DNA of 64,000 nt from a virus: the IMG/VR virus record IMGVR_UViG_3300042455_001893, positions 1 through 64,000 of that record; one strand, given 5' to 3'. Below, piece after piece: positions 40,273 to 64,000 of the stretch. Numbering within the stretch: position 1 is the stretch's first letter; every line of letters starts with the position of its first letter. The notes under the pieces are model-generated. The model was not told where the DNA came from and ran no database searches. It saw only the letters and a list, made by a program, of their open reading frames with translations. The translations under genes were made by a program, and so were the position numbers.

Positions 40273-40275
40273 AAA

Positions 40276-41174: not shown

Positions 41175-41184
41175 GTCCTCAAAT

Positions 41185-41260: not shown

Positions 41261-41266
41261 ATAATT

Positions 41267-41418
41267 AGTGCCTAGCTACTCCCACCACAGGAGCCCTAGA
41301 CTGAGCGGTTACTCTGTCCATAACATTTATTCTTATGGGAAGGTGTTAAACCTCACCTAATGCGTCTCCGGATTCCCTACACAGGATCGGAAGGCCTTTG
41401 CACTACAAACCTAGCACT
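41267..41418 (-). ncRNA. Structured RNA candidate between orf 41475 and tRNA-fMet
   Basis: A gene-free stretch (41261-41474). An outer stem AGTGC-TAG with CTA-G-GCACT (8 bp, one bulged G) encloses about 135 nt with internal hairpins: AGGTG/CACCT, CCATAA/TTATGG, a bulged TCCGAT/ATCCGGA stem and CTCC/GGAG. A further CGGGC/GCCCG hairpin lies between it and the upstream stop. The element ends 7 nt before tRNA-fMet, so tRNA processing could free it. No ORF is credible. Confidence 0.5.
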
Positions 41419-41474
41419 CTTTATGGTGACTGCCCCACCCCCTTTGTATAACGGGCAAGGGCGCCCGGGGTCTG

Positions 41475-42047: not shown

Positions 42048-42276
42048 CACGTTGTCCTTTCTTCTTTGTTTTAACAGTTTTTAAAAAATCAAGTCTAGTA
42101 TACTTGCCCTGTTCGATTTCGTTTAGAGCAGTAACAATAAATCCATGACTACCTTTATCAACTCTAGGAGCATGACCGTTTTTCAACTCTCGAGCTCGTT
42201 GACTTGCAGCCAATACCATTTCAAATCTATCGCCGTATGCTGCCACTGCGTCTTCTGATGAAAGTTGTTTGTTCAT
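42028..42276 (-). CDS. rpoZ: RNA polymerase omega subunit homologue
   Basis: 82 residues. SSEDAVAAYGDRFEMVLAAS, then QRARELKNGHAPRVDKG and IVTALNEIEQGK align clearly with the bacterial omega core (R-F-x-L-V-L-x-A-x-x-R-A-R ... A-L-x-E-I-x-x-G). Omega clamps the beta-prime subunit and supports assembly, and in hosts it links to ppGpp. A phage copy could replace the host subunit and bias transcription. The C-terminus is basic and unrelated. A long structured leader precedes it. Confidence 0.85.
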   Translation of the reverse strand: MNKQLSSEDAVAAYGDRFEMVLAASQRARELKNGHAPRVDKGSHGFIVTALNEIEQGKYTRLDFLKTVKTKKKGQRDEHFPT

Positions 42277-42559
42277 ATATTCCTTTAGGTTAAAAATAAC
42301 GGGTCAACGAAAGGTCAAGTAATAGACCGGACAATATACAATGAAGAGTTGTAGTCTTCGTTGACAATGTGCAAAATACAATACACAGAGGTCCATATAT
42401 TTCCGATTAACAAATGACATTCTATTAGGGATCGGATCACATAAACACGGCCATTGTTCAGATGGTTGTAAGTTTGGAGTAAGCATGAAGCTCACACCTT
42501 TGTGTCTATTCTCATCTACCCTTCGCTTTACCGGTCATGTATTGCTACACAACAAAACT
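42277..42559 (-). ncRNA. Long structured leader upstream of rpoZ
   Basis: About 275 nt between a perfect promoter (42560-42588) and the rpoZ ATG, with no convincing ORF. GTCAACGAA/TTCGTTGAC, a perfect 9-bp stem (42303-42365 region), encloses GGTC/GACC and ACAA/TTGT hairpins. Further upstream are CCGAT/ATCGG, GTGAGC/GCTTAC and ACAC/GGTGT hairpins. AAAGGA precedes the ATG. It may be a regulatory 5' UTR or a processed small RNA. Confidence 0.45.
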
Positions 42560-42588
42560 ATTATAGCACTCTTTAGACTAAATGTCAA
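42560..42588 (-). promoter_or_regulatory. Sigma70-type early promoter, perfect consensus
   Basis: Minus TTGACA (42583-42588), 17 bp, TATAAT (42560-42565), at the 3' end of the oxygenase gene. Drives the rpoZ leader and operon. Confidence 0.88.
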
Positions 42589-43202
42589 GTCTTTTTTGCC
42601 ACTAATTTCACATCCCAAGCCAAAATTGTTCTGTGGCCCTTGCCTTTCCACGGATACACAGTGTGTGGAATATAGCTGGGAAATATGATCATCTTCATGG
42701 GATTTGGGGTAAACCGCCATTGATCTACAAAAACAAAATGTGCAGGGTTTCTTACCACCGGCAATCTAAACTCAATCACAGCATCCGATATGTTGTCTGT
42801 GAGATCAAGATCAGGAACATCAATGTAGATGTTGCCGCTGATATGTGCTTCATGATTGTGCATGGCCTGATAGTCGCCTGCAGTCTGACGTATAGTCCAT
42901 GCTGAAACCAACATGGGTTGAAATGCTGACAGATCGTTGCGACCGCTTTGTTTGATCTGCGCATCCATGTATTCCTGGCACTGCGCTTCTACATAGCGTT
43001 TGATATGCCCTGTGTCTAGATTGAATTGATTTGGCAAGAGTTGAATCTGCTGTCCGCCACGTATGCTAATAGCAGGATTACCCTCATCATTGAGTTCTGT
43101 CTTGGTATGTGCAGTATCTACTAGACTTTTCAAATTGGTGAATACATCCGCCGGCACATCGGCCACAGCCATCACAGTTGGATTAAAATATGCAAATTTC
43201 AT
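42585..43202 (-). CDS. 2-oxoglutarate/Fe(II) oxygenase (PF13759-like)
   Basis: 205 residues. His115-x-His117-Glu (MHNHEAHISGNIYID) is the H-x-H/S-G-x-x-Y block of the 2OG-FeII_5 family, with His180 (IPHTVYPW) and Arg191. Higher GC than the 16-36 kb island, and similar in style to the oxygenase at 39315. Located within the tRNA region. Confidence 0.82.
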   Translation of the reverse strand: MKFAYFNPTVMAVADVPADVFTNLKSLVDTAHTKTELNDEGNPAISIRGGQQIQLLPNQFNLDTGHIKRYVEAQCQEYMDAQIKQSGRNDLSAFQPMLVSAWTIRQTAGDYQAMHNHEAHISGNIYIDVPDLDLTDNISDAVIEFRLPVVRNPAHFVFVDQWRFTPNPMKMIIFPSYIPHTVYPWKGKGHRTILAWDVKLVAKKT

Positions 43203-43216
43203 ATGTACCTAAAAAA

Positions 43217-43290
43217 TGGTGCCCCTTGACAGAATCGAACTGCCGTAACCTGATTACAAAACAGGTGTAATACCATTATACTAAAGGGGC
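43217..43290 (-). tRNA. tRNA-Thr(UGU)
   Basis: Acceptor GCCCCTT/AAGGGGC, anticodon loop TTTGTAA (UGU), CCA encoded. Confidence 0.93.
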
Positions 43291-43307
43291 AATACTTACT
43301 TAAAACT

Positions 43308-43382
43308 TGGTGGACCGTCCCGGGATCGAACCGGGGATTGAAGCTTGCAAAGCTACTGTGTTCCCATCTATACCAACAGCCC
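43308..43382 (-). tRNA. tRNA-Ala(UGC)
   Basis: Acceptor GGGCTGT/ACGGTCC with a G-U at pair 3, the alanine identity position. Anticodon loop TTTGCAA, CCA encoded. Confidence 0.93.
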
Positions 43383-43388
43383 AATATT

Positions 43389-43538
43389 TTACTTACCTTC
43401 GTTGAGTTTATACTCTTGAAGTTTTTCTTTAAATGCTTGTTCGGTTAGTCCGTGCCAACCGATGCACTTACCAGTAGGCGAACGACCGCAACCACACTTA
43501 CCAACCTGATCTGCATTTTCTTTAACTCGAACTTGCAT
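43389..43538 (-). CDS. CDGSH-like iron-sulfur (or zinc) small protein
   Basis: 49 residues from ATG 43538, 6 nt after a strong GGAGG site. CGCGRSPTGKCIGWH (about 14-28) follows C-x-C-x2-S-x4-C-x-G-x-H, close to the CDGSH motif C-x-C-x2-S/T-x3-P-x-C-D-G-x-H but with the Pro and Asp replaced. CDGSH proteins bind a labile 2Fe-2S cluster. In this genome it could receive clusters from IscU/IscA. Zinc binding is the alternative. Confidence 0.6.
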   Translation of the reverse strand: MQVRVKENADQVGKCGCGRSPTGKCIGWHGLTEQAFKEKLQEYKLNEGK

Positions 43539-43539
43539 G

Positions 43540-43752
43540 TTAGCCTCCACTGGATACTGTTCCGGATGCATGAGTGGTAAAATTACCACCTCCCTGTTTG
43601 CGTGGTTCACGTTTTGGCACCACGGCAGCACATAGTTCAGCATCAATCATAGCACGTTTCCATTCACCTCGTTTGTGCGGATCTAGAACTCTACTCATTG
43701 CTAGACTTGCTTTAGTCAAAGCACTCATTCTATAATTTGGACCTGGTTTCAT
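43540..43752 (-). CDS. Small basic phage protein (70 aa)
   Basis: MKPGPNYRMSALTKASLAMS, then DPHKRGEWKRAMIDAE, and a Gly/Thr-rich end. A type common in marine phages, function unknown. Its stop lies within the Shine-Dalgarno region of the CDGSH-like gene, so the two are coupled. Confidence 0.65.
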   Translation of the reverse strand: MKPGPNYRMSALTKASLAMSRVLDPHKRGEWKRAMIDAELCAAVVPKREPRKQGGGNFTTHASGTVSSGG

Positions 43753-43759
43753 TGTATTT

Positions 43760-43976
43760 CCTTTATTAAAATCTGGTTGCTCTGCATCCCCCGGCGGTAA
43801 TTATAGTACAGAAAGATATGACGCTATCATACCCCTCACTCGTACCTTCCACCCGCTTCCCGACAGGGACCGTTCTCGCATTGCTAGCGGCCTTTGGGTT
43901 TAAAGACTACCACCCGTAGTTGTCACACTACTTCTCATCGTGTGGGTCACACTATCCGAAGACACTCGGAACGTTA
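43760..43976 (-). ncRNA. Gene-free structured stretch between tRNA-Ser and orf 43540
   Basis: About 217 nt with no credible ORF. Minus-strand local stems include GTGTG-ACC-CACAC, CCGA/TCGG, CCC-TGTC-GGG and GATA/TATC. A TATAAT without a good -35 lies near 43794 and may drive the 43752 gene. I see no single long closing stem here, so RNA status is uncertain. Confidence 0.35.
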
Positions 43977-44064
43977 TGGCGGAGCATGTAGGAATCGAAC
44001 CTACTCACCCATTACTGAATGACAGATTAGCAATCTGTTGCCTTAACCGGTCGGCCAATGCTCC
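43977..44064 (-). tRNA. tRNA-Ser(GCU)
   Basis: Class II tRNA. Acceptor GGAGCAT/ATGCTCC, discriminator G, anticodon arm ACAGA-TTGCTAA-TCTGT, CCA encoded. Confidence 0.95.
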
Positions 44065-44072
44065 GTGTTGCT

Positions 44073-44148
44073 TGGTGGGTTCTGCCAGGGTCGAACTGAC
44101 GACATTCTGCGTGTAAGGCAGACGCTCTACCAACTGAGCTAAGAACCC
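44073..44148 (-). tRNA. tRNA-Val(UAC)
   Basis: Acceptor GGGTTCT/AGAACCC, anticodon arm TCTGC-CTTACAC-GCAGA, CCA encoded. Confidence 0.95.
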
Positions 44149-44155
44149 TAAACTA

Positions 44156-44239
44156 TGGTGCGCAAGGAGAGACTCGAACTCTCAATCCTTTCGGCACTGG
44201 CTTCTAAGACCAGCGTGTATACCATTCCACCACTTGCGC
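44156..44239 (-). tRNA. tRNA-Leu(UAG)
   Basis: Class II tRNA, acceptor GCGCAAG/CTTGCGC, anticodon loop CTTAGAA, variable arm GCCGAAAGG, CCA encoded. Confidence 0.95.
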
Positions 44240-44261
44240 AAATTTCTAACTAATAATATAC

Positions 44262-44290
44262 ATTATATAGTCTAATCACCTGTGTGTCAA
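44262..44290 (-). promoter_or_regulatory. Sigma70-type promoter inside the tRNA array
   Basis: Minus TTGACA (44285-44290), 17 bp, TATAAT (44262-44267), 23 bp upstream of tRNA-Leu(UAG). It splits the array into at least two transcription units. Confidence 0.88.
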
Positions 44291-44320
44291 CAACTTTATG
44301 AAAAAACTTATAAAATAATT

Positions 44321-44412
44321 TGGTACCAGCGGAGGGAATCGAACCCTCTCAAGAACGCTAATCTGGCGCTAAAAGGTTTATAAAACCTCTCTGACTACCA
44401 AGTCTCGCTGGC
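44321..44412 (-). tRNA. Anomalous class II tRNA with UAU anticodon
   Basis: 92 nt with CCA. Acceptor GCCAGCG/CGCTGGT (closing G-U), minimal D arm (GAC-TTGGTA-GTC), anticodon loop TTTATAA giving UAU (Ile AUA codon), a long variable region with CGC/GCG stem, perfect T arm GAGGG-TTCGATT-CCCTC. Ile tRNAs are normally class I, so this may be a Leu/Ser-like tRNA with a changed anticodon or a novel type. Confidence 0.7.
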
Positions 44413-44419
44413 ATTTATT

Positions 44420-44503
44420 TGGTATGAGCGGAGGGACTTGAACCCTCAATCCCGAAGGCGGCAGATTTTAAGTCTGCTGTGTATACCATTCCACCACGCT
44501 CAC
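44420..44503 (-). tRNA. tRNA-Leu(UAA)
   Basis: Class II, anticodon arm GCAGA-CTTAAAA-TCTGC, acceptor GTGAGCG/CGCTCAT, CCA encoded. Confidence 0.93.
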
Positions 44504-44509
44504 ATATCT

Positions 44510-44585
44510 TGGTGCCGCCTCTAGGGATCGAACCTAGTTCCTCGGTTCTTCAAACCGGTGCTATGACCACATCAGCTAAAGCGGC
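44510..44585 (-). tRNA. tRNA-Phe(GAA)
   Basis: Acceptor GCCGCTT/AGGCGGC, anticodon loop TTGAAGA (GAA), T arm CTAGG-TTCGATC-CCTAG, CCA encoded. One mismatch at the outer anticodon-stem pair. Confidence 0.88.
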
Positions 44586-44587
44586 AT

Positions 44588-44661
44588 TGGGGTGAAGGGG
44601 AGAATCGAACTCTCTCTTACTGTTTCACAGACAGCCGTGCAGCCACTACACTACCAACACC
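44588..44661 (-). tRNA. tRNA-His(GUG), mismatch-rich
   Basis: Anticodon arm GCTGT-CTGTGAA-ACAGT. The extra G at -1 faces C73, the histidine identity pair. The acceptor carries two adjacent U-U mismatches and the T stem an A-C. It overlaps the 3' end of the coding frame at 44617-44823. Confidence 0.8.
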
Positions 44662-44823
44662 ATTAACTTTTTCTAACACATCCTTACGCATAAGGAACTG
44701 TCGTTGATTGTCAGGGCGATGAACCAAGAGATACTCAACGCCATCTATATTCTGAGTTTGACGAGAATCTTCACAGACTACTCGTTCGTTGTTTAAACGA
44801 TTTTTAAAAGTAATAGGTTTCAT
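44617..44823 (-). CDS. Small conserved phage protein running into tRNA-His
   Basis: 68 residues from ATG 44823 (MKPITFKNRLNNERVVCEDS). Residues 1-54 (ending about LMRKDVLEKVN) form a compact beta-rich protein. The last about 14 residues are encoded by the 5' half of tRNA-His, as if the original stop were lost when the tRNA arrived. AAGGAGATATAAA precedes the ATG. Function unknown. Confidence 0.6.
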   Translation of the reverse strand: MKPITFKNRLNNERVVCEDSRQTQNIDGVEYLLVHRPDNQRQFLMRKDVLEKVNGVGSVVAARLSVKQ

Positions 44824-44893
44824 TTTATATCTCCTTGTTATGGCCAATCCTTGCACTTTGCTTGGATCTTACGTAATAGAATTTTACTAATTT

Positions 44894-44967
44894 TGGTATC
44901 GCTGCCACGAGTTGAACGTGGACTTAGACCTTCGCAGGGTCTTGTGATATCTTTTCACTACAGCGAT
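44894..44967 (-). tRNA. tRNA-Arg(GCG)
   Basis: Acceptor ATCGCTG/CAGCGAT perfect, anticodon arm AGACC-CTGCGAA-GGTCT, T loop TTCAACT, CCA encoded. A G34 arginine anticodon is rare in bacteria, which use ICG for CGN. Confidence 0.85.
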
Positions 44968-44969
44968 AA

Positions 44970-44977
44970 AATAAATA
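44970..44977 (+). promoter_or_regulatory. Late promoter core (AATAAATA)
   Basis: AATAAATA-CTTG-ATG (44982). It sits 3 bp from the 5' end of the divergent tRNA-Arg. Confidence 0.5.
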
Positions 44978-44981
44978 CTTG

Positions 44982-45653
44982 ATGTTAGACATCTTTTTAA
45001 ATCGACGAACACAGCGAGCATTTACTAATGACGCTATACCTCAAGAGCATATTGACTCAATACTAACAGCTGGTTGTTCAGCCCCTAGTAAGCAACGTGC
45101 ATATCCTTGGCGTGTTATTGCATTAACTCAAAGCCACAAAGCTCTTGAATTAAAAAATAAACTGTTCTTAGACAGTTTCATTAACATGCCAATTCGTAAA
45201 CATTTACTAACAGCCCAATCACCTTTACTGTTAGCATGGATAGGAGTTCCTATCTTAGACAACTTTGACCTAGGTCTTGTTTCTAATGGTACTACAGTAC
45301 GTGAACAAGGAATAAATGTATCTTCTAGATCTGCTGATCCTAAAACACAATATACTGTTCGAACACGTTCTGAAAAAGATACAATGATTGCTGCTAGTTT
45401 TTCTATGATACAAGCAGAATCTCTAGGATATCGTACTGCCTTTACATCATGCTTTTTCGAAGACCAAGCTCACAAGATTTTAGGTCTTGCAGAAAATGAA
45501 TGGCCCATTGTGTTTCTATCTGTTGGCCAACCCAATGACTCTCGAGTAAGAGAAACGGTAAACAACGGACCAACAACAGTTGGGTTTTCTGATCCACGTC
45601 CTTTTCCAGAGCCACCTAAGTTAACTCCTGCTGAACTATCTACTATTATCTAG
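44982..45653 (+). CDS. Nitroreductase-family FMN oxidoreductase
   Basis: 223 residues from ATG 44982; the TTG before it is rejected. RRTQRAFTNDAIPQEHIDSIL, then AGCSAPSKQRAYPWRVI at the N-terminus and ESLGYRTAFTSCF plus LGLAENEWPIVFLSVGQP near the C-terminus match the FMN-binding nitroreductase fold. It would use NAD(P)H to reduce quinone-, nitro- or flavin-like substrates. It is the only rightward gene within the tRNA array, under a late promoter, so it is expressed separately. Confidence 0.88.
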   Translation: MLDIFLNRRTQRAFTNDAIPQEHIDSILTAGCSAPSKQRAYPWRVIALTQSHKALELKNKLFLDSFINMPIRKHLLTAQSPLLLAWIGVPILDNFDLGLVSNGTTVREQGINVSSRSADPKTQYTVRTRSEKDTMIAASFSMIQAESLGYRTAFTSCFFEDQAHKILGLAENEWPIVFLSVGQPNDSRVRETVNNGPTTVGFSDPRPFPEPPKLTPAELSTII

Positions 45654-45654
45654 T

Positions 45655-45729
45655 TGGCCGGTCCTGCAGGAATCGAACCCACACCGCTTGGTTCGAAGCC
45701 AAGCATTCTATCCATTGAACTAAGGACCG
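45655..45729 (-). tRNA. tRNA-Arg(UCG)
   Basis: Acceptor CGGTCCT/AGGACCG, anticodon arm CTTGG-CTTCGAA-CCAAG, CCA encoded. Its 3' end lies 1 bp from the nitroreductase stop. Confidence 0.93.
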
Positions 45730-45737
45730 TTATTTTT

Positions 45738-45811
45738 TGGCAGAGGGTAAAGGAATCGAACCTTTAATAGCGGAATCAAAATCCGCGGTTATACCATTTA
45801 ACTAACCCCCA
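45738..45811 (-). tRNA. tRNA-Gln(UUG)
   Basis: Anticodon arm GCGGA-TTTTGAT-TCCGC, T arm normal, open 1-72 pair (U-U) as in glutamine tRNAs, CCA encoded. Confidence 0.9.
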
Positions 45812-45817
45812 ACAACT

Positions 45818-45893
45818 TGGTGGTAATAGTTGGACTCGAACCAACGATAGGCTGCGTATGAAGCAACTGCATTAGCCACTATGCTATATTACC
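45818..45893 (-). tRNA. tRNA-Met (elongator) or tRNA-Ile2 (CAU)
   Basis: Acceptor GGTAATA/TATTACC, anticodon loop TTCATAC (CAU), CCA encoded. Elongator Met versus lysidine-modified Ile2 cannot be told apart safely. Confidence 0.88.
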
Positions 45894-45977
45894 ATATAAA
45901 AACACACTCAAGTCCGCGGCACGGAAGGCACTATACCCGCGATGGTCTATGACCAGGCCTAATGTGTTTTTATATGG
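45892..45977 (-). ncRNA. Stem-closed RNA element between tRNA-Lys and tRNA-Met
   Basis: A 15-bp perfect inverted repeat (45892-45906 with 45963-45977, TGTGTTTTTATATGG) encloses about 56 nt with TGGTC-ATA-GACCA and CGCGG/CCGCG stems. The arms include the CCA of tRNA-Lys and the GG start of tRNA-Met, so the element fills the whole gap and would be released by tRNA end processing. Confidence 0.65.
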
Positions 45978-46048
45978 TAGGGGTGCTCGGGAACGATCCG
46001 AGTTTTACTGGTTAAAAGCCAGTTACTTCACCTTAAAGTTTCACCCCC
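45975..46048 (-). tRNA. tRNA-Lys(UUU) with swapped T loop
   Basis: Anticodon arm ACTGG-CTTTTAA-CCAGT, acceptor GGGGGTG/CACCCCT, CCA encoded. The T loop is ATCGTTC: A at 54 and U at 58 replace the universal U54/A58. Confidence 0.85.
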
Positions 46049-46099
46049 GTTATCTTATCACTCTTGTCACTAGTCATGACAGATCTCCTTTTAAAAAAT

Positions 46100-46174
46100 T
46101 GGTAGCCTATCTTGGGAACGATCCAAGGACCCCCGCCTTATCAAGACGGTGCTCTACCACTGAGCTAATAGGCT
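46100..46174 (-). tRNA. tRNA-Ile(GAU) with swapped T loop
   Basis: Acceptor AGCCTAT/ATAGGCT, anticodon arm CCGTC-TTGATAA-GGCGG, CCA encoded. The T loop is ATCGTTC, the same 54/58 swap as tRNA-Lys. Confidence 0.88.
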
Positions 46175-46183
46175 GTATTAGGC

Positions 46184-46291
46184 GGACGAATCATTATCAC
46201 TGCCACGCCCAGGTCATTCGGCAGGGGTACGCCACTTGGCGGTTAGGAAAGGTAACCCGTGTGCATCTAACACTGCTCAAATGATTCGTCC
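46184..46291 (-). ncRNA. Stem-closed cloverleaf-like RNA between tRNA-Ser and tRNA-Ile
   Basis: A 12-bp perfect stem (GGACGAATCATT, 46184-46195, with 46280-46291) encloses 84 nt holding three hairpins: GTTAG/CTAAC, CGCC/GGCG (loop of 4) and TGCC/GGCA. The layout is like a cloverleaf, but without a tRNA T loop. It starts 5 nt after the tRNA-Ser CCA and ends 9 nt before tRNA-Ile. Confidence 0.65.
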
Positions 46292-46296
46292 ATAGT

Positions 46297-46386
46297 TGGC
46301 GGAAGTAGTAGGATTCGAACCCACGGACCCTTTCGAGCCTTCAGTTTTCAAGACTGCTGCCTTAAGCCATGCTCAGCCATACTTCC
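46297..46386 (-). tRNA. tRNA-Ser(UGA)
   Basis: Class II, acceptor GGAAGTA, anticodon loop CTTGAAA (UGA), variable arm CTCGAAAGG, discriminator G, CCA encoded. Confidence 0.95.
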
Positions 46387-46391
46387 ATGAT

Positions 46392-46472
46392 TGGTACCCC
46401 GGGCGGGAGTTGAACCCGCATTTAAATTTCTCTTTTTGAGAGAGACGACTTTGCCAATTTGTCTACCGGGGC
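46392..46472 (-). tRNA. tRNA-Leu(CAA), short variable arm
   Basis: Acceptor GCCCCGG/CCGGGGT, anticodon arm TCTCT-CTCAAAA-AGAGA, variable segment AATTTAAAT only 9 nt, CCA encoded. Confidence 0.85.
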
Positions 46473-46482
46473 AAAAGAAAAA

Positions 46483-46515
46483 CTCCACAGCATCGACTAT
46501 GTCGAACGAGTGGAG
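46483..46515 (-). ncRNA. Hairpin between tRNA-Cys and tRNA-Leu(CAA)
   Basis: CTCCAC/GTGGAG outer stem, symmetric 4-nt internal loop, TCGAC-TAT-GTCGA inner stem. It fills the 50-nt gap and may direct processing or be a small RNA. Confidence 0.45.
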
Positions 46516-46522
46516 CCATGTT

Positions 46523-46600
46523 TGGAGTGGCGGGTGAGATTTGAACTCACGATTTTACGGATTTGCAATCCGTTGCAATGGGCCTCTCTGCCACCGCCAC
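46523..46600 (-). tRNA. tRNA-Cys(GCA)
   Basis: Acceptor GTGGCGG/CCGCCAC, discriminator U, anticodon arm ACGGA-TTGCAAA-TCCGT, CCA encoded. Confidence 0.94.
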
Positions 46601-46607
46601 ATAAATT

Positions 46608-46682
46608 TGGAAGACCGTAGGGGAGTCGAACCCCTCTTACCAGGATGAAAACCTAGTGTCCTAACCGATAGACGAACGGTCC
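46608..46682 (-). tRNA. tRNA-Glu(UUC)
   Basis: Acceptor GGACCGT/ACGGTCT, anticodon loop TTTTCAT (UUC), CCA encoded. Confidence 0.93.
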
Positions 46683-46690
46683 ATAAAACT

Positions 46691-46766
46691 TGGCGTACCC
46701 TCACGGCCTCGAACCGCGAACCTCTGGTTTTGGAGACCAGCGCTCTGCCAATTGAGCTAAGGATAC
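46691..46766 (-). tRNA. tRNA-Trp(CCA)
   Basis: Anticodon arm CTGGT-CTCCAAA-ACCAG, acceptor GTATCCT/AGGGTAC, discriminator G, CCA encoded. Confidence 0.94.
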
Positions 46767-46771
46767 ATTAT

Positions 46772-46848
46772 TGGCTCCCCGGGGAAGGCTCGAACTTCCG
46801 ACATCGGCATTAACAGTGCCGCGCAACTACCAACTGTGCTACCGAGGA
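46772..46848 (-). tRNA. tRNA-Asn(GUU)
   Basis: Acceptor TCCTCGG/CCGGGGA, anticodon arm CGGCA-CTGTTAA-TGCCG, CCA encoded. Confidence 0.94.
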
Positions 46849-46855
46849 ATAAACT

Positions 46856-46930
46856 TGGCGGTCTGTGGGGGAATCGAACCCCCGTAAGCGGATAGACAAT
46901 CCGCAGTAATAACCTCTATACGAACAGACC
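46856..46930 (-). tRNA. tRNA-Asp(GUC)
   Basis: Acceptor GGTCTGT/ACAGACC, anticodon arm GCGGA-TTGTCTA-TCCGC, discriminator G, CCA encoded. Confidence 0.95.
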
Positions 46931-46938
46931 TAAAATTG

Positions 46939-47133
46939 TTAAGCAACGCCGCGGAACGTGACACGGCACCGTTCTTGGCCACCATATTGGGCTTCTGCTA
47001 TACGCACAGCATCTCCGGATGTCTGGGCATTTACTACAGTTTCAAATTGTCGAAGGCTCTCAGTTTGAAAAGCACCGCTGGTACCTTCACCTGCATACGA
47101 ACCCACTTCAACATAAACACGATACGATTGCAT
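46939..47133 (-). CDS. Small conserved phage protein (64 aa)
   Basis: Starts at ATG 47133 (MQSYRVYVEVGSYAGEG) after AAAGGA. Strand-helix pattern with a central AQTSGDAVRIAEAQYGG stretch, as in small RRM-like or sporulation-related folds; no firm family. It has its own promoter between it and tRNA-Tyr, so it can be made independently of the array. Confidence 0.65.
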   Translation of the reverse strand: MQSYRVYVEVGSYAGEGTSGAFQTESLRQFETVVNAQTSGDAVRIAEAQYGGQERCRVTFRGVA

Positions 47134-47163
47134 TTGATTTCCTTTTAAGTTCACAGTATTAAT

Positions 47164-47192
47164 AGTATAACACCAATCCAAAAAAAAGTCAA
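47164..47192 (-). promoter_or_regulatory. Sigma70-type early promoter
   Basis: Minus TTGACT (47187-47192), 17 bp, TATACT (47164-47169), upstream of 47133 and the tRNA genes that follow. Confidence 0.8.
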
Positions 47193-47201
47193 CCATTCGT
47201 T

Positions 47202-47290
47202 TGGTGGACGAGGTAGGAGTCGAACCTACAATGTTTCTTATGTGGCGGATTTACAGTCCGTTGCCTTCAACCAATTCAGCGCACTCGTCC
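47202..47290 (-). tRNA. tRNA-Tyr(GUA)
   Basis: Class II, acceptor GGACGAG/CTCGTCC, anticodon loop CTGTAAA (GUA), variable arm ACATAAGAAACATT, CCA encoded. Confidence 0.95.
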
Positions 47291-57569: not shown

Positions 57570-59612
57570 TTACTTCTCGTGAGCAACAAACTCGCCGTTC
57601 CAGTTGTCGCCTAGATCTTGCAGTTTCATAAAGTCGCAACGCTCGATCCAGATTTTGTAGTACTTGTCCATTTGTCCACCAAAGTTGCCCTTTAGCTTTG
57701 CACACATAGCGGCAGCTTCGTCAAACTTTTTCTGTCGGTACAAGTCATGCATCACTTCGTGTGCTATCTTATCTCTAGTGTAGTCTGCACCCTTAGTACG
57801 TAATACTGTATAGATCAAGTCTGCCACAGTTTTTCCTTTAGGCTGTAAGTTATCTATCATTAGATAAAAGAAGTCGTCTTTGGTACGATTGTATGTTTCA
57901 GCACCAATAATACATAGTACACCATAGGCCTTACAACGTGCTTCTAGTCGTGCCGCGGTTGACACCATATCACCTAAGATGTCATAACCGTGTCTGTCAG
58001 TTGATCCCATCTCGCCAATAAAGCCAATACCAGTATTGCAACCCCAACCCATTGCGGCAGGTGGTAATCCTTGTGCTTCCATCAGTTTTGTGTATTCGTC
58101 AACAGCATCCAGCATCTCTAGGCCAACAGCAACAATAGTTCTAGCATGATTGGTGTCTTCGATAGGAGCACCATGTATGTGCATACTCGCATCACCTACA
58201 TACTTTAATATCATGCCGTTGTTGTTCATGATAGGACGACTGATAGCATCCATGTAGCCGTTCATATACTTGCCTAGTCCGCCTACATCATCACCATAGT
58301 GTTCACCAATAGGAGTAAAGCCACGCAGGTCACTGAACATAACTGATACATCTTTGCGTACACCACGCTTGATTAAGTCTGGATCTTTTTGTAGTAGCTC
58401 TACAACTTCTTTAGAGCAATAACCCGCAAACTGTTTCTTTATGGCCTGCTTCTGTAAGAACTCGCTTACAAATTTAACGCCATAAGTATGAAGAGCAACG
58501 ATAACAAGCCCAAACGTGATTGCAGTCGCATCTGATAGGATGAGCCAATTACTGAAAGCGTACATAGTACCAGGAACGACGGCACCAACAATAACCACAG
58601 CAGAACCAATTCCAACATAAGTCCACCTCGATAAGAAAATTAACAATATGCCGAATACTAGTAATGCTAGGATTTCAACTCCGTCGGCATAGTCGGGACG
58701 TTGAATTACCACTCCGTTGATCATAGTTGCCATTGCTGCCGCTTGTACATCCTGCGGCCACACTGCACCTTTAGCTGTAGGCAAAGGATTAGCAATGCCT
58801 GCGGCTGTTGGACCTACTATAACTATAGCACCATTAAAGTTTTTGGGCAAGTCCAAAAGACTCGCCTGTTGGTTTTCTTGACTCCAATCGATCCATACAC
58901 GACCTAACGCATCTGTTGTAATAGGACCAAACTTGGGTATGCGCATTTTCTCAACACCATTTTCATTGAGCTTGACTTGGAAGGTTGAATCACCAGCTGC
59001 GACTCTAAGTGCTTCCATAGACATACTGGGATATAATTTACCATCAACGGATACAACTAGGGGCAGTCGTCGATTAACACCGTCTACTTCTGGCAGTGTA
59101 CTAACGATACCAATGCCTGCTGCTGCATTTTCTAACTGAGGTACATTGGCAATAAGTCCCGGGTATTGTACAATTTGATCCTGCCACTCTGGACCTAGTA
59201 CAGCACTACCTGGATTGCGAGGAGAGTTCTTAGTTTTTTGTGATGGTACGCTGCCCATTACAACTGGATATTGTTTTAGGGCCGTTGCGAGAACAGCATC
59301 GCCACCAGTGCGATCAGGCTCAGCCATGATAACATTGAGCACAACAAGGCCAGCACCACGATCATAAAGATCTTTAATAATTTTTGCATACTCTGCCCTT
59401 GGTAAAGGCCACTGGCCATATTTGTCCAATGCTGCTTCATCTATGTTTACCGTATAGATGTTATTGGCAGTTGGAGTTTTATTAGTAATCAGTGTGTCAA
59501 AGTAGCGTAGTCTTACACTTTCTACAAAGACAGGATCGGCGATTCTTATACTTACAATAAGTGCCAATGTTAATAGGGCAGTCCAAGGACTAGTTAGGAT
59601 TTTTTTCAGCAT
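57570..59612 (-). CDS. CHASE2-domain adenylate cyclase (class III)
   Basis: 680 residues. A TM helix (9-25), a periplasmic CHASE2 sensor (about 30-308), three TM helices (about 312-380) and a cytoplasmic class III cyclase domain (about 420-605). Metal Asp428 (FSDLRGF) and Asp474 (KYVGDA) are intact. Lys470 and Asp544 (GYDILG) are the adenine-selecting pair, so the product should be cAMP. Arg555 is kept, but the transition-state Asn is Ser551. A late promoter core CATAAATA-TTTC precedes the ATG. It is last in the curlin/FecR cluster and should report on the periplasm or surface. Confidence 0.92.
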   Translation of the reverse strand: MLKKILTSPWTALLTLALIVSIRIADPVFVESVRLRYFDTLITNKTPTANNIYTVNIDEAALDKYGQWPLPRAEYAKIIKDLYDRGAGLVVLNVIMAEPDRTGGDAVLATALKQYPVVMGSVPSQKTKNSPRNPGSAVLGPEWQDQIVQYPGLIANVPQLENAAAGIGIVSTLPEVDGVNRRLPLVVSVDGKLYPSMSMEALRVAAGDSTFQVKLNENGVEKMRIPKFGPITTDALGRVWIDWSQENQQASLLDLPKNFNGAIVIVGPTAAGIANPLPTAKGAVWPQDVQAAAMATMINGVVIQRPDYADGVEILALLVFGILLIFLSRWTYVGIGSAVVIVGAVVPGTMYAFSNWLILSDATAITFGLVIVALHTYGVKFVSEFLQKQAIKKQFAGYCSKEVVELLQKDPDLIKRGVRKDVSVMFSDLRGFTPIGEHYGDDVGGLGKYMNGYMDAISRPIMNNNGMILKYVGDASMHIHGAPIEDTNHARTIVAVGLEMLDAVDEYTKLMEAQGLPPAAMGWGCNTGIGFIGEMGSTDRHGYDILGDMVSTAARLEARCKAYGVLCIIGAETYNRTKDDFFYLMIDNLQPKGKTVADLIYTVLRTKGADYTRDKIAHEVMHDLYRQKKFDEAAAMCAKLKGNFGGQMDKYYKIWIERCDFMKLQDLGDNWNGEFVAHEK

Positions 59613-59616
59613 GAAA

Positions 59617-59624
59617 TATTTATG
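59617..59624 (-). promoter_or_regulatory. Late promoter core (CATAAATA) before the cyclase
   Basis: Minus CATAAATA-TTTC-ATG 59612, with the same spacer as at 19621. The cyclase can thus be transcribed apart from the genes before it. Confidence 0.5.
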
Positions 59625-59629
59625 CTGTT

Positions 59630-61285
59630 TTATTGTCCCTGTGTCACAGTAATTTTAGCACAACCGCCTACAGTGGTGCAGTTGTGAGTGATTGAATAGT
59701 AGTTTTGAGTACTGCCACTTTGTGTTAGACTTAGATCAGTAGGTGTACCGCTTAGATTAACTTTGGCCATATGACTGGCGCTGCCTTGTTGCAGTACGTC
59801 GACATTCTTATTACCGCCACTTAGTGTGATTTCAGCATAGTGACTGCCGCCGTCTTTTTGTTGTACCAGCAAACTATTGTTATTGCCGCTGACATCAGCA
59901 AATATTCCTTTAGTACCACCAGTACTGGTCTGTTGTAGATCTACTAAGTTAAAATTACCCACAACTCTCAAGTCAACATAATTTGCCTGTGTTGTAGCAT
60001 TTCCTGTTTGTGCGATATTAATATCATTGCTTAGACCATTGCCGTAATATTCGACATAATTATTTTTAGTCCCGCTTTGATTTACTTCAACTACGTTTTG
60101 TGTGCCGATCTGTTCTATGTGTACTTGGCTATCGGCAGTTGTTCTATTAACGAATGTTAAAACTTTAGCCGTGTTTGTTGTGTTAGCATTAAATGCGGCT
60201 GCTGATCCACCGCAACATAACGTATTTGCGGCGGCGGTTGTTGGATCAACAATAGTATTGCTAGTTGCTGTACTTGTGGTTGTACTATTAGCATCATAGA
60301 AATAGGTAATCTCTGCAATTTGTACGCTATTACCAGCATTGTTTTTAATAGAAGGGAATATCATAAAATAATAAACATAGGCCGTAGAGTTAGTTACTGC
60401 GATATCGCTACTAACACTAAATCTATTATCGGACAAAGATAGTGCGCCTTGTTGAATTAATGTCCATGTTGATCCGTCATTTGATCCGTAGAGTTTATAA
60501 CTTGTTGGATCTCGCTCTACAGCATCATTAGCTGTAGTTAATTTAAAACTAGTAACAACTCGCCCAGCATTTAATTGGATAGTAACTCCAGCATTTTGTT
60601 TATCGAAGTTTAAGTACTTGGTATAGGGATTGTTATCAAACGCATTAGTAGGACCTTCATTGCTTGGACTATTATTGCTAGTTGGTATTGCTCTGGTAAC
60701 ATACACACCAGAACTGTTATTGTAAATTGCGGTAGGCGCAGGTGGCGGCGGCGCCGCATTACTAGGAGTAGATGTAGCAGTCTGCCCTGAACTTAACGGT
60801 ACTGTAGAATACGTGGCGTTAGCGTATGTATCGGCCTGTTGTATAGTCGGATTAAGTGCGCCAGTCCACGATACTCCGCTGGTAGTTGACATACCCGAGC
60901 TGCCACTGAATAGCTGTCCTGTATTGTTGTCATTGCCTACAAAGAAGAAATAATCTGGACCCATGTTGACAATTTTACCTGTGCCTATAGTACCAGCTAG
61001 TGTGCCGTTGCTGTTGTAAACTTTGCCTTCGTAGGGATAGCTGGCATTCCCTGTCAACCCAAATTGTACATACTGTCCTGACTGCCAACTCCAAGTTCCA
61101 TTGAACCATGGTATTTTGTACATAGTACCAGGTTGCTTACTGTAAATTTGGCAGGTTGTTGTATTCAAACAGGCACTGACATTCCATTGGCTGTCTGCAA
61201 TTTGGTATCGTCCAAACTTTATATCTGTTAGGGCGCCAAATGCGTTAGAGCAGAATAATAACAATAAAAAAATTATTCGTTTCAT
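59630..61285 (-). CDS. Secreted discoidin-like protein with curlin-type repeats
   Basis: 551 residues. Signal peptide (MKRIIFLLLLFCSNAFG). Residues about 20-170 are a Trp/Gly/Tyr-rich surface domain, 171-190 a Pro/Ala linker, about 205-335 an F5/8 type C (discoidin-like) carbohydrate-binding domain (NAFDNNPYTKYLNF; SYKLYGSNDGSTWTL; AEITYF), and 390-551 Asn/Gln/Gly repeats of the type V-x-V-x-Q-x-G-x-x-N like curli subunits. Overlaps fecR by 4 bp. Suggests an amyloid-capable sugar-binding adhesin. Confidence 0.75.
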   Translation of the reverse strand: MKRIIFLLLLFCSNAFGALTDIKFGRYQIADSQWNVSACLNTTTCQIYSKQPGTMYKIPWFNGTWSWQSGQYVQFGLTGNASYPYEGKVYNSNGTLAGTIGTGKIVNMGPDYFFFVGNDNNTGQLFSGSSGMSTTSGVSWTGALNPTIQQADTYANATYSTVPLSSGQTATSTPSNAAPPPPAPTAIYNNSSGVYVTRAIPTSNNSPSNEGPTNAFDNNPYTKYLNFDKQNAGVTIQLNAGRVVTSFKLTTANDAVERDPTSYKLYGSNDGSTWTLIQQGALSLSDNRFSVSSDIAVTNSTAYVYYFMIFPSIKNNAGNSVQIAEITYFYDANSTTTSTATSNTIVDPTTAAANTLCCGGSAAAFNANTTNTAKVLTFVNRTTADSQVHIEQIGTQNVVEVNQSGTKNNYVEYYGNGLSNDINIAQTGNATTQANYVDLRVVGNFNLVDLQQTSTGGTKGIFADVSGNNNSLLVQQKDGGSHYAEITLSGGNKNVDVLQQGSASHMAKVNLSGTPTDLSLTQSGSTQNYYSITHNCTTVGGCAKITVTQGQ

Positions 61286-62376
61286 GGACGTCTTAACACT
61301 CCAGTCTTTTGTACAATGTTTACTACATTACCGCCTGGATCTCCGCTACCAACAAACGTAAACGCATATTGATCATTGTGGCTTATAGACACAAATGTGT
61401 TTGAATCATAGCCTGTGGTTTTAACTTCAGCATAATGATCTGTATTACTTCTATAGGCTGTACCTTTGCCTTTACTTTGTATATCAGGAGAGTCGTTCTT
61501 TTCCCATGCCACGCAAACAGTAGTACTTGGATTACATCCTTTCTTACCATCAGAAAATGTATCTGGCAATAGTACAGGGTCGCTTTTTTCGTTGGCTTTT
61601 TCAACACGCATAGCTATTTGTCGTTGGGCGTCTGCCTCGAGTTCTTCTAATTCAGTATCACGTTTTGATCTGCCGGCATCTTTAATTGCCTGCAAGACTT
61701 CTTGAGGCTTAACAATGATTAAGTTATTACCTATCTTGCCTTCAACGGTATTGACAATAACTGGGGAAGTTGGCATCATTGAAGCACTGGTGACATAGGT
61801 AGCTTCGAATGCCTTGTCTAAGGTCACTGATCCAATGCCTGTAGTCACTGTGATACTGCCAACCTTACATCGTTGTTCATCTAGTTCAAATTGTTTAACG
61901 TCTTTTTCGTCTTTACAACTAGGAACCAGCATGATAAGACTTTGCCCAGTTTCATCCACAGTCATAGTGAAATCAGTGCCACGCACTGCTACTGTAGCTG
62001 TTGGAGTTTTGATGTTTACCTGTTGCGGATTATTTTTAGCAATTTGTCCGCTAGCGTATCGGACAGTGCCCATACCAACTTTGAGCGCGAGCTTGCCTGC
62101 ATCTGATTTCTTAGGATCGAAAACAAAATCGTCGATAAGCAATCTGCTGTTTTCTGTAACTTTGACTTTGGTATCATCTTTGAATGTTATATTACTTACA
62201 CAAGCACCGGTTGTATAAGTGTCCATGCTTTCAATTTCAGCACCCTTAACTCCTGACATCTTTTTCTTATTGCGTTCAACTTCACAGGCTGTGCCTTTGT
62301 TTTCTGAAACCGTGCCAATGCCAGCCCAAGAAGGGCTGGCCACTGTTAGCAGTAGGGCTAACAACAAGACACGCAT
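61282..62376 (-). CDS. FecR-domain periplasmic protein
   Basis: 364 residues. Signal peptide (MRVLLLALLLTVASPSWA). The FecR core is clear: DTKVKVTENSRLLIDDFVFD (about 68-87), KVGMGTVRYASGQIAKNN (about 99-116) and VNIKTPTATVAVRGTDFTMT (about 120-139). A charged coiled stretch follows (about 235-262). FecR domains in CHASE2-cyclase clusters are thought to sense or scaffold envelope signals. It lies between a curlin gene and a curlin-repeat adhesin, with 4-bp overlaps, so it is part of one operon. Confidence 0.87.
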   Translation of the reverse strand: MRVLLLALLLTVASPSWAGIGTVSENKGTACEVERNKKKMSGVKGAEIESMDTYTTGACVSNITFKDDTKVKVTENSRLLIDDFVFDPKKSDAGKLALKVGMGTVRYASGQIAKNNPQQVNIKTPTATVAVRGTDFTMTVDETGQSLIMLVPSCKDEKDVKQFELDEQRCKVGSITVTTGIGSVTLDKAFEATYVTSASMMPTSPVIVNTVEGKIGNNLIIVKPQEVLQAIKDAGRSKRDTELEELEADAQRQIAMRVEKANEKSDPVLLPDTFSDGKKGCNPSTTVCVAWEKNDSPDIQSKGKGTAYRSNTDHYAEVKTTGYDSNTFVSISHNDQYAFTFVGSGDPGGNVVNIVQKTGVLRRP

Positions 62377-62378
62377 AA

Positions 62379-63194
62379 TTATCTCGCAATCGCTGTGGCT
62401 GGAGATACAATAGCTGAACTACTTGTACGAACTGTGATAGTGTTGTTGCTACCCTGTGTTTGTATATTAACTGTGGTATCGTTGGTGCCTTGTTGCTGTG
62501 TGGTGATGCTGTTGTAGTCGCCTGTGGTCATCATAGCAAGAACATGTCCGTTAGCACCCGCTGCATCTAATTGCTGGATGTTGAACACGTTAGCGTTTCC
62601 ATTAGCTACATTTGATACACTACCTCTGCTGCTTAACAAACTACTAGTAACTTGGTTATTATCTCCATCCAAAACTGTGTTAGTAGTAATATTGCTACCA
62701 ACTAGATCTTGTAGAATCATATTGTTATTACCGATAATTTGTTCTGTAATAACGTTTTGGCTGTTTGTAGCGTTGTTGGTATTGCCAATAGTTAATCTAG
62801 TTTGATTACCATTGCCTAACATATTAGTAGTGTAGCTGTTATTACTTCCACGAATATTGTATTGGCTACTGTTAGCATTTCCTGTTTGTGTAATGTCAAC
62901 TATGTTTGTGCTTCCGGTAATAGTTCCATAGTTAGTAGCACTCGGTGCGTCTGGAGTCAGTGTAGTAATACCTGTTCCTGCTACTGTCGTTGCTACAGTT
63001 GTAGTAACGCCGCCAACATTGTTAGTCCCGCCAACTTGTTCAATTGTGATAGTATTGCTACTACCCACTTGTTCGATATAAACCTTGTTAGGACCTGTTG
63101 CTGTCTGAGCACCACTTATGGTGGCAAAGCTCATCAGCATCACTGTGAGTAATTTTCTCGACAACCCACAACCGCCTGTCATTGTTTGTTTCAT
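62379..63194 (-). CDS. Curlin-repeat protein (CsgA/CsgB-like)
   Basis: 271 residues. Signal peptide to about residue 30 (LLTVMLMSFATISGAQTA). Many imperfect repeats follow the curlin pattern (N-x-I-x-I-x-Q-x-G-x-x-N), for example PNKVYIEQVGSSNTITIEQ, NVITEQIIGNNNMIL and STVNIQ-type strands near the end (TVNIQTQGSNNTITVRTS). Beta-solenoid amyloid subunits of this type are exported by CsgG. The reading frame follows the csgG-like gene, so subunit and pore are coded together. Confidence 0.82.
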   Translation of the reverse strand: MKQTMTGGCGLSRKLLTVMLMSFATISGAQTATGPNKVYIEQVGSSNTITIEQVGGTNNVGGVTTTVATTVAGTGITTLTPDAPSATNYGTITGSTNIVDITQTGNANSSQYNIRGSNNSYTTNMLGNGNQTRLTIGNTNNATNSQNVITEQIIGNNNMILQDLVGSNITTNTVLDGDNNQVTSSLLSSRGSVSNVANGNANVFNIQQLDAAGANGHVLAMMTTGDYNSITTQQQGTNDTTVNIQTQGSNNTITVRTSSSAIVSPATAIAR

Positions 63195-63205
63195 TTTTTT
63201 AAAAT

Positions 63206-63255
63206 GTCAGTTTATTGTTTGCTGACAAGTTCCTGGTCATTGACCTATAATTATA
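63206..63255 (-). promoter_or_regulatory. Regulatory region between csgG and curlin genes
   Basis: A perfect palindrome GGTCA-T-TGACC (about 63234-63244), a TATAAT (63250-63255) on the minus strand with no good -35, and a TGTCAG/CTGACA hairpin (about 63206-63228) directly before the curlin ATG. This could form an operator plus promoter and a leader hairpin. Confidence 0.45.
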
Positions 63256-63338
63256 CCACTTCTCTAATCTACTCCTCTCCGTAGACTTACTTCTTGTAAT
63301 TTTATTTAATCTCTGTACTCTAGAAATTAAATGCCGCT

Positions 63339-63386
63339 GTTAAAATTTCAACATGTTAAAATTTCAACATGTTAAAATTCCAACAC
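63339..63386. repeat. Three tandem 16-bp repeats after csgG stop
   Basis: GTTAAAATTTCAACAT twice and GTTAAAATTCCAACAC once. Each unit holds a near-palindrome (GTTRAAATTTYAAC). They lie 2 bp after the csgG stop. Possible operator array or a remnant of slippage. Confidence 0.85.
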
Positions 63387-63388
63387 CA

Positions 63389-64000
63389 TTAAGGTTTGTT
63401 AACCAGTACATCCTTATTAACAAATCCTTTTCGTTTTTGTGAGTCACTGACTGCTACCCAATCACCCTCTTGTCCTATAATTGTAACTAAAGCACCTTTC
63501 TTAAACTGCCAAGTTTTTTGACTTGTTAGGTCGGGCTCTTTATAAATGTAAGAAGCTTCCTTTAAAATCATCTCACCTGAAAGTTTTTCAACCGGTACAA
63601 CTTCTTTCTTTATTTCTGCGGGGGCACTGGATACGGCTTCGGTTTTGGTTTCGGGTTTGGCTTGTGATTGAACCACGACATCTTTCTTCTCCTCTACTAC
63701 TGGTACTGATATTACTACTGGTGCAGGTATTACTACTGGTGCAGGTATTACTACTGGTGCAGGTATCGCCGGAATAACGGCAACCGGAGAACTTACTTTA
63801 TTGCTTTTAAATGCCCAGTGTCCTTTACGAGCACCTTCATTAATAGTTTGAATCACTGCTGCCTGTACAGCTACGTCGATTGCCTTGTTGATACTTTCAT
63901 TTATGCTGCCGCCGATCTCACCCTCTAATGCATTTGCATTTGCACCTAAAGTTGTGCCATCTCCAACAAATCGCAATAATGTCACTTTGTCCATATAACT
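63389..64000 (-). CDS. csgG: CsgG-like curli secretion pore with C-terminal SH3 domain (partial)
   Basis: The frame stays open to the right edge, so the N-terminus is missing and the Met at 63994 is internal. The visible first 65 residues (VTLLRFVGDG...GSINESINKAIDVAVQAAVIQT) match the C-terminal end of CsgG. A Pro/Val repeat linker follows (VIPAPV units, about 70-100), then a Lys/Glu stretch and a bacterial SH3 domain (about 140-200; SYIYKEPDLTSQKTWQFKKG, GDWVAVSD). CsgG forms the outer-membrane channel for curli. The SH3 tail could bind peptidoglycan. Similar CsgG genes are known in marine T4-like phages. Confidence 0.7.
   Translation of the reverse strand, partial: SYMDKVTLLRFVGDGTTLGANANALEGEIGGSINESINKAIDVAVQAAVIQTINEGARKGHWAFKSNKVSSPVAVIPAIPAPVVIPAPVVIPAPVVISVPVVEEKKDVVVQSQAKPETKTEAVSSAPAEIKKEVVPVEKLSGEMILKEASYIYKEPDLTSQKTWQFKKGALVTIIGQEGDWVAVSDSQKRKGFVNKDVLVNKP

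Follow-up and report, generated by a model that had tools for sequence, protein, structure and literature searches.

Curli genes carried by phages have been described before. According to the available part of a 2022 account of pelagiphages (PMC9599517), these phages encode CsgF, CsgG, a CsgA/B protein, FecR, often a second CsgA/B protein, and an adenylate cyclase, and expression of pelagiphage relatives was seen in metatranscriptomes. Phage csgF and csgG have also been reported with suggested roles in sibling capture or lysis control (PMC7029224 and PMC9004378, in the parts available). Here we describe an operon of this kind in a window of 64,000 nucleotides, which is the whole stretch of DNA analyzed and corresponds to bases 1-64000 of the 80,646-bp virus record IMGVR_UViG_3300042455_001893. 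The gene set is already published and is not new to phages, being known from smaller marine viruses. We tentatively read the locus, with somewhat less than even confidence, as a phage-borne type VIII (curli) secretion operon through which the infected cell would display curlin fibers with exchangeable glycan-binding heads, coupled to a cyclic AMP (cAMP) signaling pair. The observed basis of this reading is gene content, gene order, conservation, purifying selection, domains, head variability, catalytic residues, and upstream control elements.

Organization and conservation of the operon

The genes of the operon are the following. Positions are those of the window unless the record is named.

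57570..59612, minus strand: CHASE2 class III nucleotidyl cyclase of 680 amino acids (Pfam CHASE2, E = 1e-38; Guanylate_cyc, 1e-12)
59630..61285, minus strand: curlin2, with a signal peptide, a region N1 (~20-180), an F5/8C (CBM32-like) head (~200-330; Pfam F5/8C, 2e-9), and a curlin-repeat stalk (~371-551)
61282..62376, minus strand: FecR-domain protein (Pfam FecR, 1e-9), with a signal peptide and a suggestive C-terminal curlin-like hairpin
62379..63194, minus strand: curlin1, a CsgA/B-like curlin-repeat protein of 271 amino acids with a signal peptide (Curlin_rpt, 7e-4)
63389..64000, minus strand: C-terminal part of CsgG; the whole gene (record 63389-64624) encodes 411 amino acids (CsgG PF03783, 1e-46)
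Record 64628-65110, just outside the window, minus strand: csgF (CsgF PF10614, 5e-8)

The preliminary description had placed five genes on the minus strand at this site, which is borne out from the sequence, and the sequence past the window end completes csgG and adds csgF. The identities proposed for the genes are correct, as judged from the Pfam matches of CHASE2, Guanylate_cyc, F5/8C, FecR, and the completed CsgG. Pfam backs every part of the operon, with the curlin1 repeat just below the cut-off (19.9 bits against 20.7 bits). All genes read leftward in the order csgF, csgG, curlin1, FecR, curlin2, and cyclase, and csgF ends 3 bp upstream of csgG. The tight spacing that had been claimed holds for the last four genes, where curlin1 and FecR lie 2 bp apart, FecR and curlin2 overlap by 4 bp, and curlin2 and the cyclase lie 17 bp apart, but not for csgG and curlin1, since the gap between them is 194 bp and not less than 20 bp. 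Hydropathy, together with inspection by eye of the curlin1 N terminus, gives signal-peptide-like starts for CsgF, curlin1, FecR, and curlin2, and a lipobox-like start for CsgG.

The viral loci (IMG/VR; contigs up to 372 kb) used for comparison are the best 80 matches per query of more than 500 and are biased towards relatives of the window. Co-occurrence was counted for same-strand neighbors at loci with enough flanking sequence, namely 42/80 CsgG-, 40/79 FecR-, and 63/80 cyclase-anchored loci. csgF, csgG, FecR, and the cyclase occur together in 38/42, 38/40, and 58/63 of these, respectively, so that the co-occurrence in related phages on which the preliminary description had staked its claim beforehand is found. 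At six loci, the cyclase lies close by but on the opposite strand. At the eligible CsgG-anchored loci, FecR and curlin1 are each present in 42/42 and the cyclase in 38/42. Compared with the relative L011, all six genes give ratios of nonsynonymous to synonymous substitution rates (dN/dS) of 0.06-0.19, indicating purifying selection, with dS unsaturated in five of six; the loci compared are not equally related, and saturation affects several of the other comparisons.

Comparison with described phage modules and bacterial loci

The pelagiphage module (Podoviridae and Myoviridae; HTVC008M, NC_020484) has the same order of CsgF, CsgG, curlin, FecR, second curlin, and cyclase in the available part of its description. 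In contrast to the pelagiphages, the operon here belongs to large contigs of a T4-like lineage. A 353-kb contig encodes CsgG and FecR identical to those of the window, and its terminase is nearest to those of PA5oct-type jumbo Pseudomonas phages (53% identity). The window also encodes a T4 gp9/10-like baseplate protein. The operon differs further in its CsgG with an SH3 extension, its curlin2 with a discoidin head, and its cyclase of the D544/S551 type, whereas the HTVC008M cyclase is of the T/N type. The histidine kinase preceding csgF in the Podoviridae version (PMC9599517, in the part available) is not found in the two genes preceding csgF here, one of which has no Pfam match and the other of which is a bilin reductase.

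Methylophilales phage Melnitz (MZ577098) has the same six genes in the same order, with a cyclase 44.5% identical over its length. Its curlin2 consists of the stalk only (338 amino acids), and its CsgG is without the SH3 extension. In a phage collection searched by tblastn, 6 records match at least 80% of the cyclase length, and all of them are Melnitz or HTVC008M. The available text of PMC9599517 does not mention CHASE2, carbohydrate, or signal peptide, and that of PMC7029224 mentions neither discoidin nor CHASE2. Exchangeable curlin2 heads, a paired cyclase change, tandem dyads, and a covarying leader hairpin, all described below, are likewise unmentioned in these accounts of the module, as far as their available parts go.

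Bacterial curli operons have CsgG, CsgF, and curlin-repeat proteins in common with the phage operon, whereas FecR and the cyclase are rare there. Among 80 bacterial csgG loci, csgF is found in 79, FecR in 4, and the cyclase in 3. Three of the loci with FecR lie on contigs of 3-10 kb, and the fourth is on a 705-kb Hyphomonas contig. In this contig (Hyphomonas sp. TMED17, NHBW01000006; L256), csgF, csgG, curlin, FecR, and CHASE2 cyclase genes lie on one strand among metabolic genes. At least one cellular genome thus holds the combination that PMC9599517, in its available part, puts outside bacterial curli operons. The Hyphomonas operon differs from that of the phage in having one long curlin (504 amino acids), no curlin2, and a cyclase of the S/N type. 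Such a cyclase (E ≤ 1e-80) occurs in 1/105 genomes of the family of Hyphomonas and in 130/385 of its class. In the CsgG tree, the phages group together (support 91/89) with four contigs of metagenome-assembled genomes nested among them, and Hyphomonas falls on the bacterial side with a long branch.

Curlin1 and the predicted CsgG-CsgF pore

Curlin1 would be the fiber subunit. Its repeat period of 22 residues stands above 500 shuffles (p = 0.002), and the Q-x-G positions are invariant across 40 curlin1 rows. The curlin repeat is matched at E ≤ 0.001 in 23 of these 40 aligned proteins, that of the window among them. CsgG consists of a lipobox signal, the CsgG domain, a proline-rich linker, and a C-terminal SH3 domain (SH3_4, 6e-7), and the SH3 domain may tether the pore to the cell wall. 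CsgG and CsgF would form an outer-membrane pore that works without CsgE.

The same two proteins have been proposed in Melnitz to be a repurposed lysis-timing pore of the pinholin-like or secretin-like type, which would make the curlins remnants or gating parts. Such a role is published with structural modeling (PMC9004378, in the part available), and the CsgE gate was not found in 11 records. However, the available part of that paper states that csgA and csgB are missing, whereas GenBank annotates two curlin-repeat proteins in Melnitz-3. Besides, curlin1 is kept in all 42 eligible loci under purifying selection, and a lysis pore has no use for variable glycan-binding heads. We regard the lysis-pore explanation as very improbable for the operon described here.

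Curlin2 and its exchangeable heads

Judging from its sequence, curlin2 is a putative modular adhesin in which a curlin stalk bears a head that can be exchanged (discoidin/CBM32-like, PA14, another type, or no head). The stalk would put the variable head, here discoidin/CBM32-like, on the fiber. The stalk has a period of 23 residues, above 500 shuffles (p = 0.002), and no repeat period is found by the same test in the head (p = 0.18) or in FecR (p = 0.60). The stalk also gives a profile match of 99.5% with Cur1. In the structure model of curlin2 (predicted local distance difference test score (pLDDT), 85.6), the head matches CBM32 structures, many of which were solved with galactose-type ligands.

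The position between FecR and the cyclase is a variable slot, as observed in 114 loci (one locus per FecR segment; L045, L050, and L053 were left out since FecR and cyclase overlap there). The slot holds 206 proteins of at least 170 amino acids, and the stalk is present in 87 of them. Among these 87 stalk proteins, N1 occurs in 36, F5/8C in 31, and PA14 in 18, while 25 have none of the three, and F5/8C and PA14 never occur together. The stalk is approximately 196 residues long in most rows of a 60-row alignment, and the heads range from 167 to 462 residues. When the cyclases of two loci share at least 90% identity, the head make-up differs in 5/10 pairs, and at 80-90% identity it differs in 148/181 (77 loci). 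Among 69 slot cluster representatives of at least 300 amino acids, Pfam detects curlin repeats in 17; F5/8C-type domains are present in 12-13 of them, and PA14 is present in 6. Only four F5/8C matches are found in 10 large related records: those of the type of this phage itself (two records) are in curlin2, and the other two are in frames of similar size. The dS of curlin2 against L011 is 1.73, two to four times the values of its neighbors (0.43-0.80), suggesting exchange of the curlin2 gene. In several loci, the slot also holds ATP-grasp (RimK-like), amidoligase, glycosyltransferase, autotransporter, and peroxiredoxin genes.

Heads of this kind suit adhesion better than a bare pore, and their exchange speaks against a bare lysis pore. 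The benefit would most likely be that infected cells adhere or aggregate, or that they are masked from other phages. A narrower version of the latter is that the fiber chiefly serves superinfection exclusion, keeping other phages off the infected cell, and does not glue cells, the heads binding the host's own glycans. The CBM32-like and PA14 heads change fast, as expected if host strains differ in their surface glycans, and shielding is among the ideas proposed in the available part of PMC9599517. Nevertheless, the observations are also compatible with adhesion to other cells or particles, and shielding as the principal function seems rather doubtful to us.

FecR and the CHASE2 cyclase

The model of FecR (pLDDT, 84.4) has the FecR/PupR cell-surface signaling fold (Z = 14.5, root-mean-square deviation 2.9, 135 aligned residues), and the next structural match is PDB 5ix9, a "cell surface anchoring domain" (Z = 6.7). 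FecR gave no match among PDB sequences. Hydropathy shows only the N-terminal signal, with neither the transmembrane helix nor the cytoplasmic anti-sigma part of FecR anti-sigma regulators. Since a signal peptide is present without a further hydrophobic segment, FecR is read as a soluble envelope protein. An iron-sensing FecR, the reading in the available part of PMC9599517, was rejected for this protein, as the same features are not those of a FecI/FecR/FecA anti-sigma.

The last 70 residues of FecR resemble a curlin repeat pair, with a match to the curlin2 stalk at 56% probability (E = 1e-4), whereas three controls gave at most 0.11%; the match to curlin1 is just 2%. Gln356 in this region is kept in 71/72 rows. 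The profile is suggestive of a curlin-like hairpin at the C terminus. FecR could plausibly contact both the fiber and the CHASE2 sensor.

The cyclase consists of an N-terminal hydrophobic segment, CHASE2, several hydrophobic segments at 307-382, and the catalytic domain, as judged by hydropathy. This membrane cyclase would convert the condition of the envelope into host cAMP. The metal-binding Asp pair, Lys, and Arg are present, and D428, K470, D474, and R555 are invariant in 121/121 distinct viral cyclases. The residues at positions 544 and 551 should be noted. Such positions are generally assigned to purine choice and the transition state, 551 corresponding to the transition-state Asn of other class III cyclases. 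The pair is Asp/Ser in 96 of the 121 viral cyclases, including that of the window, Thr/Asn in 24, and Ser/Asn in 1. Ser551 stands in the window cyclase where other class III cyclases have Asn, which is present in 25/121 viral sequences. Among 35 sequences from bacterial genomes, Ser/Asn occurs in 30, Thr/Asn in 3, and Asp/Ser in 1, and one is unaligned. The sole bacterial Asp/Ser cyclase (L246) is on a 9.7-kb contig of a metagenome-assembled genome whose CsgG nests among the phages, so that it is probably a phage contig. The retention of the paired 544/551 change by the phages argues for an active but altered enzyme.

The statement in the preliminary description that FecR and CHASE2 cyclases pair in bacteria stands, as seen in Campylobacterota (PMC9239204), in Sinorhizobium meliloti (PMC5498481; both in the parts available), and in bacterial loci examined here. 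In L389 and L396, FecR and the cyclase are same-strand neighbors, and the FecR of L396 heads a cadherin/RTX-type adhesin; L391 was left out of the bacterial FecR rows, as its FecR match is on the strand opposite to the frame examined. In S. meliloti, the order CyaD1-FecR (SMc02177)-SMc02178-Clr puts a FecR gene beside a CHASE2 cyclase as here, and a neighboring promoter has a functional TGTTN8AACA box; the circuit is described without curli genes in the available part of PMC5498481.

Such precedents leave room for the alternative that the FecR-cyclase pair reprograms host cAMP for phage replication and merely accompanies the fiber genes, with no sensing of fiber assembly. FecR-CHASE2 cyclase clusters without curli genes are found in bacteria (PMC5498481 and PMC9239204, in part; L389, L396, and L406), bacterial csgG loci are seldom near FecR or the cyclase, and some viral loci lack the cyclase or have it on the opposite strand. 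On the other hand, FecR is present in all 42 eligible CsgG-anchored viral loci and is tied more tightly to the csg genes than the cyclase is, and the same operon exists in the Hyphomonas chromosome. We consider this alternative unlikely.

Assessment of display and sensing

According to the preferred reading, infected cells would display curlin fibers, and FecR and the CHASE2 cyclase would report on the envelope via cAMP. From the features described above, we infer that amyloid fibers form and are displayed, that they bind, and that sensing yields a cAMP output with some benefit. The preliminary description had put forward an extracellular amyloid or adhesin layer whose assembly CHASE2 would sense and convert to cAMP, and it is supported in part, through the gene identities, the tight operon, the co-occurrence, and the pairing of FecR with CHASE2 cyclases in bacteria. 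The display part is better supported than the sensing part, which rests on gene linkage, fold, and bacterial precedent.

Several observations weigh against this reading. The periplasmic gate CsgE was found in 0/11 records, some of which are fragments, and the control matched E. coli only; the published pelagiphage modules are likewise without CsgE. Melnitz cultures show no clumping (PMC9004378, in the part available). On the sensing side, no same-strand cyclase is found in 4/42 CsgG-anchored and 2/40 FecR-anchored eligible loci, suggesting that the cyclase is not strictly required. The profile match of the FecR C terminus is weak. The S. meliloti FecR gene beside the CHASE2 cyclase is not needed for plant-signal perception (PMC5498481, in the part available). 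Judging from the active-site residues, the enzyme activity may be low owing to the replacement of Asn by Ser551. No cyclic nucleotide-binding protein was found in 10 phage records, so that any cAMP receptor must be that of the host.

Control elements upstream of curlin1

The following elements lie between csgG and the curlin1 start codon.

63338..63385, no strand assigned: three tandem, abutting 16-bp dyads, TGTT-N8-AACA
63326..63331, minus strand: TTTAAT, a -10-like hexamer lying 6 bp past the final dyad
63235-63245: a shorter hairpin near the Shine-Dalgarno-like site of curlin1
63205..63227, minus strand: RNA hairpin between the Shine-Dalgarno-like AGGA (63231-63234) and the curlin1 start codon

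The Clr-box was first defined as TGTTN8AACA beside the FecR-CHASE2 cyclase locus of S. meliloti (PMC5498481, in the part available). The dyads of the window fit this 16-bp palindrome as first defined, in three tandem copies, but differ from the relaxed Clr consensus HGTYHCNNNNGRWACA in having no inner C and G. Tandem dyads occur in 22/49 distinct csgG-curlin1 gaps of at least 100 bp and in 0 of 500 mononucleotide shuffles, and none is found in the other module gaps or within 300 bp ahead of csgF or of the cyclase. The array is unique in the 353-kb contig save one more match at 25736. Among the loci from protein searches, 23/25 distinct tandem arrays are in the csgG-curlin1 gap, one is just after csgG (L026, a short contig), and the remaining one is inside the cyclase gene (L005). 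A -10-like hexamer follows a dyad end in 25/49 gaps, with a pattern written after viewing the sequences. A Sigma-70 scan gave 16 promoter-like sites against 12.0 expected; it did not pick the hexamer, and no -35 element was found with it.

A scan made without bias through viral_contigs found 37 array loci, of which 9 contain genes of the module; in another 11, three-unit arrays are located elsewhere. The latter precede genes for a 143-amino acid protein or for Asn-rich secreted proteins. The array as an element of curli genes only was therefore rejected, since related phage records also have three-unit arrays ahead of other genes. Genes behind the same arrays (L450:5600-6700 and L428:3290-3826) encode Asn-, Ser-, and Thr-rich proteins of phrog_20531, and the signal peptide of the L450 protein resembles that of curlin1. 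The promoter and signal peptide may have been exchanged between surface-protein genes.

A phage cAMP loop is conceivable from these sequences, in which the cyclase would lift host cAMP and a host receptor of the Crp/Clr type would bind the dyads and switch the curlin1-FecR-curlin2-cyclase sub-operon, including the cyclase itself. If true, a modular adhesive surface fiber would be expressed under hard-wired second-messenger feedback, with the RNA hairpin setting curlin translation. We regard such a loop as highly speculative. CHASE2 was not found in ten of the eleven records with arrays elsewhere that were searched (one of 356 kb; some fragments), which speaks against the loop. Because the arrays precede other genes in records where no CHASE2 was found, the array is taken as a shared element of the phage group, and the loop is just a lead.

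The leader hairpin shows covariation of 0.495 across 45 leaders, against 0.224 in shuffled alignments (0/500) and at most 0.221 when slid. Of 138 leaders, 66 have a Shine-Dalgarno-like site at the spacing selected, and the 45 were taken from these; a single row defined which columns pair. Among unselected curlin1 leaders, 63/138 have stems of at least 7, whereas dinucleotide shuffles gave a mean of 20.8 and a maximum of 28. A stem excess is also found before csgF (87/142 against 39.6 shuffled, maximum 51), and small ones before curlin2 (35/105; 22.7, maximum 29) and the cyclase (39/126; 30.6, maximum 37). Uniqueness of hairpin stems to curlin1 was accordingly rejected. The arrangement Shine-Dalgarno-hairpin-ATG is found in 77/138 curlin1 leaders against a shuffled mean of 16, where shuffling destroyed the Shine-Dalgarno site too, and the other five genes are at most near the shuffled level. 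RNAalifold predicted no pairs on a 41-row leader alignment. Rfam at the gathering threshold (L002, L029, and L155) found only a transfer-messenger RNA (tmRNA) in L029, and the hairpin is not covered by any match.

Other genes of the record and a related contig

The window holds 29 transfer RNA genes on a single strand (39085-47290) and a gene for a 594-amino acid protein with a Major tropism determinant N-terminal domain (35824-37608). Just upstream of csgF, past a 474-amino acid gene, a heme oxygenase gene overlaps one for a ferredoxin-dependent bilin reductase, the two forming a phage bilin-synthesis pair (record 66616-67840; L002:6616-7840). Genes recognized by eye as ClpS-, small heat-shock protein-, and DnaK-like are grouped at record 68111-70859 (L002:8111-10859). 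An AhpC-type peroxiredoxin and a carboxymuconolactone decarboxylase (AhpD-like) protein are encoded at record 77697-78939 (L002:17697-18939). In a related phage contig, the permuted tmRNA at L029:2924-3328 also matches the alphaproteobacterial family, which is a weak hint at the host.

Implications

The phage-typical active site of the cyclase poses a simple biochemical question, and the upstream dyads and the leader hairpin are handles on when the fiber is made. If fibers form, these phages would remodel the surface of the infected cell with a display system whose tip changes hands among relatives more quickly than the remaining operon diverges. The purpose of phage curli would then be testable through what the heads bind, which would argue against a pore-only role.

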